DNA of 64,000 nucleotides, from assembly GCA_009701715.1 (NCBI GenBank), contig WLJO01000009.1:1-64000 (forward strand), read 5' to 3'. The notes below the pieces were generated by a model. It searched no databases, was not told the DNA's origin, and was given only the letters and a program-made list of their open reading frames with translations. Within the stretch, counting starts at the first letter, position 1. Each line of letters opens with the position of its first letter. This DNA is from Actinomycetota bacterium. GTDB lineage: Bacteria > Actinomycetota > Acidimicrobiia > Acidimicrobiales > Ilumatobacteraceae. A program made the position numbers and the translations under genes. Positions 46,435-49,233 of the stretch are shown in pieces.

Positions 46435-47070
46435 ATGGCAATTCGACTGGGCGACGAAGCACCCGATTTCACGGCGGACACCACGCAGGGGACGATCCAC
46501 TTCCACGACTGGCTCGGCGACTCGTGGGGTGTGTTGTTCAGCCACCCGAAGGACTTCACGCCGGTGTGTACCACCGAACTGGGCTACGTCGCGAGGATCA
46601 AGCCCGAATTCGACCGACGGAACGTGAAAGTGATCGGGCTCTCGGTGGACGCTGTGGACTCCCACGTCAAGTGGGAGCAGGACATCGCCGAGACCCAGGG
46701 CACGGCGGTCAACTTCCCCATGATCGGTGACCCGGACCGCACGGTGTCCAATCTCTACGACATGATCCACCCGAACGCGAGCGACAGCTTCACCGTTCGC
46801 TCGGTATTCGTGATCGGGCCCGACAAGAAGGTGAAGCTGACGATCACCTACCCGGCATCGACCGGTCGCAATTTCGACGAGATCCTGCGGGTGATCGACT
46901 CGCTGCAGCTCACCGCGAAGTTCAAGGTGGCAACCCCTGCGAACTGGCACGACGGTGACGACGTGATCATCGGTGCTGTCGTGTCCGACGACGATGCGAA
47001 GAAGCTGTTCCCGCAGGGCTGGACCGCCGTGAAGCCGTACCTGCGCATGGTCAAGCAGCCGGGCAGGTAG
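46435..47070 (+). CDS. 1-Cys peroxiredoxin (Prx6 type)
   Basis: A thiol peroxidase of 211 residues that reduces H2O2 or organic peroxides. The only Cys in the protein is Cys45 in FTPVCTTE; the long C-terminal extension with WHDGDDVIIGAVVSDDDAKKLFP defines the Prx6 class. A single-Cys enzyme needs an external thiol (mycothiol, thioredoxin or an AhpD-like partner). AAGGAGA precedes the ATG, with a leader of up to 150 nt. Two AhpD/CMD-family genes lie within 1.5 kb. Confidence 0.93.
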   Translation: MAIRLGDEAPDFTADTTQGTIHFHDWLGDSWGVLFSHPKDFTPVCTTELGYVARIKPEFDRRNVKVIGLSVDAVDSHVKWEQDIAETQGTAVNFPMIGDPDRTVSNLYDMIHPNASDSFTVRSVFVIGPDKKVKLTITYPASTGRNFDEILRVIDSLQLTAKFKVATPANWHDGDDVIIGAVVSDDDAKKLFPQGWTAVKPYLRMVKQPGR

Positions 47071-47092: not shown

Positions 47093-47596
47093 CTACGCCT
47101 TCACCCAGTTCTCCTCCACCCAGGCGCGCACAGCGGGGGCGAGGTATGAGAGGTACTCGCCCGGGTACTCCCGGATGAGCGTCGCCGAGATGGGCACCGC
47201 GCTGCGGTCCGGGTCCACCACCACCGCCTCTGCGCCGAGGCGCCGAGCCAACTCGTCGATATAGAAGTCGGACGAGAACACGGCGTGCGGCCCGTCATCG
47301 GGGAACGGCCACTTGGAGCGGAACAGGTCGATCCACTGGGCCCACAGTTCCTCGTCGTCGAAGTTCGTCTCGAGGTTGTGGTGCACCTCCACGACGGTTG
47401 CCTCGGGGGTCATGTCCTGGAGCCACTGCGCGCGTAGGGCGCCGGGCACCACCTCACCGTCCCGTGTGTTCACGAACACGACCAGGCGCTCGCAGCGCTG
47501 TGCCGCCCAGCCGATCACGAAGCGGTGGCCGAGGTGTGGTGGGCAGAAGCGGCCGACAATCAGGCCGGTTCGATAGCGGTCGTCGATCTCAGACAT
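47093..47596 (-). CDS. NadR-type nicotinamide/nicotinate-nucleotide adenylyltransferase-like protein
   Basis: A 167-residue nucleotidyltransferase: GRFCPPHLGH (15-24) is the (H/T)xGH active-site region and ISATLIRE the ISxTxxR phosphate loop. VFSSDFYIDELARRLGAEAVVVDPDR matches the NMN adenylyltransferase domain of NadR; the kinase domain is absent. It should make NAD from NMN. Its ribosome-binding site GGAGGGG is buried in the hairpin at 47599-47645. Confidence 0.83.
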   Translation of the reverse strand: MSEIDDRYRTGLIVGRFCPPHLGHRFVIGWAAQRCERLVVFVNTRDGEVVPGALRAQWLQDMTPEATVVEVHHNLETNFDDEELWAQWIDLFRSKWPFPDDGPHAVFSSDFYIDELARRLGAEAVVVDPDRSAVPISATLIREYPGEYLSYLAPAVRAWVEENWVKA

Positions 47597-47646: not shown

Positions 47647-48147
47647 CTAGCTACCGGGAGAGGGGATGACTGTGACATCCATCTGCTCGGGCTCGAGACC
47701 GAGCACGATCAACACCTTCGAGAGCCCGTGCACGAGTGCGAGCCCCACGCCGATCTCCACAATCTCGGGCTCGGAGAACTCCGCCCGCAGCGCTGCCTGC
47801 TGCTCGGGGGACGGGGCACCCGTCTCGTTGAGATACGCATCGGCGAGGATCAGGGCCCGCTTATGACGCTCCGGGAGTCCGCTGTCGGCCCACTGATCGG
47901 TGATCTGCTCGACGAGCTCCTCCGTGAGCCCTTCTTGCCTCGCGACCGCGAAGCGCAGCTTCTTTCAAAGACCGCAATCGGTGATGGTGGCGTTGCGCAG
48001 TCGCGCAACCTCCTTGATGGACTGCTCGACGAGGCCGTGGCTCCAGAAGTGTCCGTAGAGGTCACCGTAGGGCGTGCTGGAGAAGTACTCCGCTACGGCA
48101 TTGATCGGCTTGCCGTCGGCGTCCCGAAGACGGGGCGAGGTGGACAT
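47647..48147 (-). CDS. AhpD/carboxymuconolactone-decarboxylase family selenoprotein (in-frame UGA)
   Basis: A 166-residue reading frame with one internal TGA at 47965-47967 (residue 61), ending at TAG 47647-47649. Before it: EYFSSTPYGDLYGHFWSHGL and EVARLRNATITDCGL. After it, in the same frame: KKLRFAVARQEGLTEELVEQI, the continuation expected for the family. The UGA thus sits at the second Cys of the CxxC redox centre, giving Cys58-Gly-Leu-Sec61. No restart codon follows the UGA closely, and a SECIS-like hairpin does. AhpD-like selenoproteins with CxxU are known from marine metagenomes. The ATG overlaps the stop of the upstream CMD gene by one base (TGATG). Likely a thiol oxidoreductase. No sel genes are in the window. 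Confidence 0.85.
47937..47954 (-). promoter_or_regulatory. Bacterial SECIS-like element
   Basis: Ten nucleotides after the UGA, GCUUCGC pairs with GCGAGGC (7 bp, one G-U) around the apical loop GGUC. Spacing and the GGU loop match the fdhF SECIS that binds SelB in E. coli. Confidence 0.75.
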
Positions 48148-48581
48148 CAGATTCCTTCCACTGCGAAAACCCGGCGGAACTTGGTGAATCCGTCGAGCAT
48201 GGCGATGTTCATGAGGAGGGCAACGGTTCCCTGTTCGCCGAGCAGGTGCTGGAGGCGAAGGATCTGGTCGTCGGTGATCGAGTGGTGATCGATGAGGAAG
48301 GCCTCACACACCTCGATCGAGGTGCGCTCCACGTCGGACAGTGCAGCGTGCGAGTACCAGTTGGTTGCCTGGTCCACGAGTTCCGGATCCGCGGATGCCA
48401 CGTACCCCTCGTTGCGGAGCAACTGGGCTGCGCGGATCTCCAGCAGCGTGCGCAGCCGGGGCCCAATGCTCGCTGCGGCGTGCGAGTCGAACGCCTCGAG
48501 ATGCCCGGCGAGGTCCGGGCGCAATGCCAGAAGACTCTCGGCCGACGAGTCCGCAGCCGCGTTGATCCACGTTCCCCCCAT
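48147..48581 (-). CDS. Carboxymuconolactone-decarboxylase-like (AhpD fold) protein without CxxC
   Basis: A 144-residue helical protein related to the CMD/AhpD family (RTLLEIRAAQLL, DVERTSIEVCEAFLIDHHSITDDQILRLQ, ALLMNIAMLDGFTKFRRVF). It has a single Cys (VCEAF) and no CxxC, so it is probably a structural partner or a non-redox member. It is translationally linked to the selenoprotein gene downstream and led by a TACGCT element. Confidence 0.78.
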   Translation of the reverse strand: MGGTWINAAADSSAESLLALRPDLAGHLEAFDSHAAASIGPRLRTLLEIRAAQLLRNEGYVASADPELVDQATNWYSHAALSDVERTSIEVCEAFLIDHHSITDDQILRLQHLLGEQGTVALLMNIAMLDGFTKFRRVFAVEGI

Positions 48582-48587
48582 GTCCGG

Positions 48588-48593
48588 AGCGTA
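48588..48593 (-). promoter_or_regulatory. Leaderless -10 element of the CMD/selenoprotein operon
   Basis: TACGCT on the minus strand, 6 nt before the ATG at 48581. Confidence 0.5.
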
Positions 48594-48612
48594 CCGAATC
48601 GGGCGGCCGCCG

Positions 48613-49233
48613 TCAGCCGGGGGGCACAAGCGCCACACGGGCGTCCAGACAGGCCTGACGCACGCAGCAACCCTCGAAATGATCATTGGTGAGCCCCATG
48701 GCCTGCATGAACGCGTACACCGTGGTTGGTCCCACGAACGACCAACCGCGCTTCTTCAGGTCCTTGGACATCGCTGTCGAGGCCGGGGAGACCGAAGGGA
48801 TGGGGAACGCGCCCCCGGCAGGACGGTACGGCTCGGCCTCGAAGCGCCACACGTAGGCCGCCAGCGACCCGAACTCCTCGGCGAGCGCAATCACCCGGCG
48901 GGCGTTGTTGATCGTCGACTCGATCTTGCCGCGGTGGCGGACGATCCCGGCGTCGCCGAGGAGGCGCTCGACATCGTGCCCACCGAAGTTCGCCACTGCG
49001 AGTGCATCGAAGCCGGCAAAGGCGGACCGGAAGTTCTCGCGCTTGCGCAGGATCGTGAGCCACGACAGGCCCGACTGGAAGCCCTCGAGACACAGTTTCT
49101 CGAACAGCCTGCGGTCATTGAGCACCGGACGACCCCACTCCGTGTCGTGGTAGTCGCGGTACTGCGCGTCCGGACCGGCGCCCCAGGTGCAGCGCTCGAG
49201 CCCATCCTCAGCCGCCCTGAGCCAGTCGCTCAC
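48613..49233 (-). CDS. tag: DNA-3-methyladenine glycosylase I
   Basis: Removes 3-methyladenine from alkylated DNA. The 206-residue product has RCTWG and DYHDTEWGRP near the N-terminus, GFQSGLSWLTILRKRENFRSAF, and NDHFEGCCV; the first Cys, the two His and the late Cys form the zinc snap of Tag. The GTG at 49233 overlaps the cyclase stop (GTGA), so the gene is coupled to the regulator upstream. Confidence 0.93.
   Translation of the reverse strand: MSDWLRAAEDGLERCTWGAGPDAQYRDYHDTEWGRPVLNDRRLFEKLCLEGFQSGLSWLTILRKRENFRSAFAGFDALAVANFGGHDVERLLGDAGIVRHRGKIESTINNARRVIALAEEFGSLAAYVWRFEAEPYRPAGGAFPIPSVSPASTAMSKDLKKRGWSFVGPTTVYAFMQAMGLTNDHFEGCCVRQACLDARVALVPPG

Follow-up and report, generated by a model that had tools for sequence, protein, structure and literature searches.

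The gene at positions 47647-48147, on the minus strand of the window (the whole 64,000-nucleotide stretch of DNA that was analysed), very probably encodes a selenoprotein, with selenocysteine (Sec) at residue 61 read from an in-frame TGA. Judging from its sequence, the gene appears to be of a known kind, the AhpD/CMD-like proteins with a CxxU active site, and to be new within it both as a subfamily and as a two-component variant. The features discussed below are as follows.

47647..48147, minus strand: gene for the putative Sec-containing AhpD/CMD-like protein (166 aa; Glu46, Cys58, Sec61)
48147-48145, minus strand: ATG start of the Sec gene
47965..47967, minus strand: in-frame TGA, predicted Sec codon 61, in the TGA/Cys column of homologues
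47937..47954, minus strand: predicted SECIS hairpin, 7-bp stem with a GGUC apical loop
47649-47647, minus strand: TAG stop of the Sec gene, 105 sense codons after the TGA
48147..48686, minus strand: degenerate AhpD/CMD-fold partner gene without CxxC, upstream of the Sec gene
47093..47596, minus strand: NadR-like nicotinamide-nucleotide adenylyltransferase gene, conserved neighbour
46435..47070, plus strand: 1-Cys-type peroxiredoxin gene, convergent conserved neighbour, start chosen at MAIRLGDEAPDF

The in-frame TGA and its conservation

An earlier note on this DNA had described one in-frame TGA at codon 61 followed by a proper stop 105 codons further on. These coordinates and counts are correct; what the note did not mention is the strand, which is minus. 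The plus strand also has a long open frame over 47647-48147. With the TGA read as U, the frame of the Sec gene runs ...RLRNATITDCGLUKKLRFAVARQEGLTEEL..., and its active-site motif becomes Cys58-Gly-Leu-Sec61 (CxxU). Homologues were collected by a scan of a genome collection and by whole-genome searches, with both sides of the TGA covered. As the note had supposed from the family-like protein on either side, these homologues span the codon, and dozens of genomes have exactly one in-frame TGA in the corresponding column. The column of codon 61 is TGA in 35 near-homologue loci from Acidimicrobiales, the window gene counted, although a few genera account for many of these, so that they cannot be counted as 35 separate events. 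In two close homologues the column encodes Cys, by TGC in L023 and by TGT in L100, which agrees with the placement of the TGA at the second Cys of the redox CxxC; aligning the fused translation with its homologues, a check that the note had proposed, thus gives either Cys or Sec at the X position. The invariant positions of alignment A1 are Glu46, Arg49, Cys58, and Cys/Sec61.

In comparison with the nearest relative, dN/dS of the Sec gene is 0.13 before the TGA and 0.06 after it; with the next-nearest relative, the values are 0.17 and 0.21. Because the same-column TGA recurs in dozens of genomes and the downstream dN/dS is 0.06, the observed features of the gene are confirmed to be far beyond chance. 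It could be argued that the gene is dead, or that the TGA is a sequencing error for a true Cys codon: the two close homologues do have TGC or TGT, and a tRNA-Sec gene is missing from the assembly. However, the same TGA is present in 34 other near-homologue loci, the part past the TGA is under purifying selection, the codons of the hairpin described below are frozen, and the Sec machinery is present in the genome, all of which makes this explanation highly improbable. A pseudogene or a sequencing error at 47965-47967 is refuted by the conservation of the TGA across multiple genomes.

Only 3 of the 396 genomes in a phylum-wide sample had a match at 1e-12; therefore, the close Sec-AhpD family appears to be confined to Acidimicrobiales within this sample. 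Several relatives (G002, G003, G014, G020, and G029) have, in addition, a more distant AhpD-like homologue that contains an in-frame TGA of its own, and thus more than one Sec-AhpD paralogue is probably encoded in each of these genomes. The sole match of a plasmid search was a distant homologue (28.6% identity) on a plasmid of Novosphingobium sp. PP1Y (NC_015583.1:612877-613296). This stretch has no listed gene, which is possibly meaningless, because the gene table of the plasmid is incomplete.

The SECIS hairpin

According to the published model, a bacterial SECIS element has a stem of 4-16 bp, a loop of 3-9 nt with a G in its first two positions, a distance of 16-37 nt from the UGA, and an MFE <= -7.5 (PMC13188914). 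The window hairpin lies within all four of these constraints: its stem has 7 bp, its loop is the 4-nt GGUC, the UGA-to-loop distance is 17 nt, and the hairpin alone folds at -10.2 kcal/mol. The MFE structure of the window's own 48 nt after the TGA is a different fold; the 7-bp hairpin is the consensus of the group of sequences that we call group A. All seven pairs are formed in 22/22 group A sequences, 11-28 nt past the TGA, with a loop of GGUC or AGGU. Exchanges are seen at five of the pairs (C-G/T-A/T-G, G-C/A-T, and T-A/T-G), and in two of these pairs both bases have been replaced (G-C to A-T and C-G to T-A). The local MFE of group A has a mean z of -2.74 against synonymous recodings. The fractions from synonymous shuffling of individual sequences are modest (median 0.067); what makes the case strong is the sequences taken together, along with codon identity. 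In eight f1-family sequences, every same-residue comparison at codons 65-70 gives identical codons, versus 0.48-0.51 elsewhere.

The Cys homologues L023 and L100 lack the hairpin, with 3/7 pairs formed on average. This observation also bears on another reading of the TGA, namely that it is a real stop, which ends a 60-residue protein and leaves the downstream part unmade or expressed separately. Without Sec-tRNA, the mRNA would indeed terminate there; however, the codon lies inside the conserved CxxU active site and its helix, the Cys forms have an uninterrupted frame, and it is precisely these forms that have no hairpin. We therefore regard a real stop as very unlikely.

Group B, which consists of the fused forms of the protein (see below) together with L024, L084, and L095, does not have the group A hairpin. 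A different, weaker hairpin with a CGUGA loop was found 18-36 nt past the TGA, but since some group B sequences break it, this assignment is less certain. Within one gene family, SECIS placement appears to differ between clades (11-28 versus 18-36 nt), which amounts to a natural experiment on SECIS placement.

Selenocysteine machinery

The search of the genome for selA, selB, selD, and a tRNA-Sec, which the earlier note had recommended, succeeded for the three protein-coding genes. All of them are above cut-off (393, 271, and 349 bits, respectively), selA and selB are adjacent (C34:95146-97388), and selD is on the same contig. The tRNA-Sec, however, was not found in the 96-contig draft, where the Rfam model, ARAGORN, and an anticodon/T-loop pattern returned ordinary tRNAs only, nor was it found in the regions around selAB and selD. 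It is present in 11/11 relatives searched, two of them from the same genus, and the 2.2-kb contig that carries selC in the nearest relative, a congener, has no match in the window's draft. The simplest reading, which is not proven, is that the missing tRNA-Sec is an assembly gap. In the order sample, selA was identified in 31 of the 36 genomes with the close TGA form (36 being a count tallied by hand from two lists) versus 234 of 397 genomes overall (Fisher p 2.5e-4). The selD gene (L045, G000:C34:18945-19889) has an in-frame TGA of its own in the active-site motif GAG-U-ACKLG, with a strong hairpin after it; SelD of this genome is itself a selenoprotein, of a known type.

The TGA/Cys column, the covariation of the SECIS together with the frozen codons, and the presence of selA, selB, and selD in the same genome uphold the Sec reading that the earlier note had put forward. 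An altered code, in which TGA is read genome-wide as tryptophan or another residue, is barely conceivable and was rejected: TGA terminates the overlapping upstream gene at 48149-48147, the homologues have Cys rather than Trp, and the Sec machinery is present. That SelB and Sec-tRNA would decode UGA61 as selenocysteine, directed by the downstream hairpin, is well supported.

Fold, active site, and family membership

The best sequence matches among solved structures are Atu0492 (2gmy) and PA0269 (2o4d, 2ijc, and 7xw1). A model of the Sec protein built from seven sequences (pLDDT 73, moderate confidence) matches the same PDB entries, with a best E of 1.7e-5, 18 chains at E <= 0.001, and a probability of 1.00. 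The model has the all-helical AhpD fold, with the Glu and the CxxU in adjacent helices (42-56 and 59-71). Sequence and model both suggest that Cys58 and Sec61 form a CxxU redox pair at the start of the active-site helix, and that Glu46 occupies the position of the AhpD proton-relay glutamate. The five-residue relay (Glu, Cys, His/Tyr, Cys, His) is incomplete: its positions are Glu46, Cys58, Leu60, Sec61, and Arg65, where Leu60 and Arg65 replace His/Tyr and His. Because Arg65 is found at the position of AhpD His137, the activity may differ from that of AhpD. By analogy with the family, we infer a function in thiol-disulfide or peroxide reduction; most likely, the protein would cycle between reduced and selenenylsulfide states and would thereby reduce either peroxides or a disulfide in a partner protein, e.g., a peroxiredoxin.

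The match to the Pfam CMD model (PF02627) has 21.7 bits (E 2.1e-4), just under the gathering threshold of 23 bits. The scores for NF053654 (31 versus 310 bits), NF041047 (20.2 versus 110), and TIGR01926 (15.2 versus 81.8) are far under the curated cut-offs. NF053654 (GroundWater_YciW, YciW-related (seleno)protein) is the NCBIfam model matched by 21/22 family members, and by its own rule the window protein is not a member. The family would add a selenoprotein subfamily outside the current named models, and in dozens of Acidimicrobiales genomes standard annotation would call such a gene two fragments or a pseudogene.

An inactive AhpD-fold partner

The TGA stop of the gene directly upstream (48149-48147) shares 1 nt with the ATG of the Sec gene. 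Its translation probably starts at an internal ATG at 48581 (MGGTWIN), not at 48686. No Pfam match was found for the partner protein, and its homology was assessed by profile-profile comparison and fold search. The partner profile matches the Sec-domain profile with an hhalign E of 9.8e-19, and the best matches of the partner model (pLDDT 80, moderate confidence) are AhpD structures, with a probability of 1.00 and E of 0.002-0.02, none reaching 0.001. Profiles and model indicate that the partner is an inactive AhpD-fold paralogue of the Sec protein.

In nearly all stand-alone Sec forms from Acidimicrobiales, the gene immediately before the Sec gene is a related partner gene, which usually overlaps it by 1 or 4 nt; such a gene also adjoins the Cys forms. 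By the length filter used, no partner was detected at L092. In ten loci (L078-L083, L088, L090, L098, and L099), the Sec protein is a single chain of ~290 residues, in which the partner is fused C-terminally to the Sec domain; the profile of the C-terminal halves of seven fusions matches the partner profile (E 2.9e-15). Where the upstream flank of the fused loci is known, the preceding gene resembles the C-terminus of leucyl-tRNA synthetase.

Because the partner precedes nearly all stand-alone Acidimicrobiales Sec homologues and ten loci have it joined to the Sec domain in one protein, a two-component pair of active and inactive AhpD is suggested. In its full form, this proposal is a two-component selenoenzyme, in which a Sec-AhpD subunit and an obligate inactive paralogue would form a hetero-oligomer with a Sestrin-like active/inactive architecture, the two proteins being co-translated from overlapping genes and, in another lineage, joined as a single chain; we give it an even chance of being right. 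In view of the gene overlap and the fusions in other lineages, the upstream paralogue would most likely assemble with the Sec protein as a structural or regulatory subunit. On the other hand, the Sec protein may be real and its upstream paralogue an operon neighbour only, with the Sec protein homo-oligomeric like PA0269. AhpD-like relatives do form homo-hexamers or trimers (PMC3141380), and no partner gene is found beside L026 or the proteobacterial L012-L014, which have other neighbours. Yet nearly all stand-alone Acidimicrobiales forms have the 1- or 4-nt overlap, and the two domains are fused in ten loci; the operon-neighbour reading thus seems rather unlikely, if possible. The consistent pairing with an inactive paralogue offers a testable bacterial pair of active and pseudo-AhpD, the architecture proposed for Sestrin ancestry.

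Other neighbouring genes

The NadR-like gene is possibly on the same transcript as the Sec gene. This gene and the 1-Cys peroxiredoxin are conserved beside the pair in f1 relatives, and this conserved neighbourhood may reflect a gene order inherited from a common ancestor rather than a functional link. That the 1-Cys peroxiredoxin might be a redox client of the Sec protein is offered as a hypothesis only.

Comparison with known systems

AhpD-like and CMD-domain CxxU selenoproteins have been known since 2005 through surveys of Sargasso Sea and GOS data (PMC1088965, PMC2398784), as the earlier note stated for marine metagenomes, and they were still tabulated in 2026 (PMC13188914). Its wording of a "new" selenoprotein therefore does not hold for the kind, but it does for the subfamily and for the inactive AhpD-fold partner, which it did not notice. 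Compared by description, not sequence by sequence, the survey proteins share with the window protein the AhpD/CMD relationship, the CxxU motif, a directly downstream bacterial SECIS, and Cys homologues, whereas the window subfamily was found in Acidimicrobiales, has scores well under those required by the named NCBIfam models, and comes with an inactive paralogue. In a limited literature search, we found no Sec AhpD that is accompanied by an inactive partner, whether as a separate protein or as a fusion; AhpD is not mentioned in the deep-Sep paper.

By both sequence and fold, PA0269 and Atu0492 are the closest solved structures, and their CxxC aligns with the window CxxU. The relay of PA0269 consists of Glu36, Cys48, Tyr50, Cys51, and His55 (PMC3141380); Glu36 corresponds to Glu46 of the window protein, whereas His55 is Arg65. 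Both proteins are homo-oligomeric and have Cys where the window protein would have Sec. AhpD from Mycobacterium tuberculosis shares the fold and the spacing of Glu118, Cys130, and Cys133; however, it is a weak structural match, its His132 and His137 are not conserved, and it has Cys instead of Sec.

Finally, Sestrins have been described, as have fused AhpD dimers of bacteria in which one domain is cysteine-less (PMC11429811). Like the Sec forms, they combine a redox-active AhpD-fold domain with an altered one, and the order in Sestrins, with the redox-active domain first, is that of the fused Sec forms, a likeness of architecture only. What would set the window pair apart is the Sec active site and the encoding of the two domains by separate genes, with the inactive one first.
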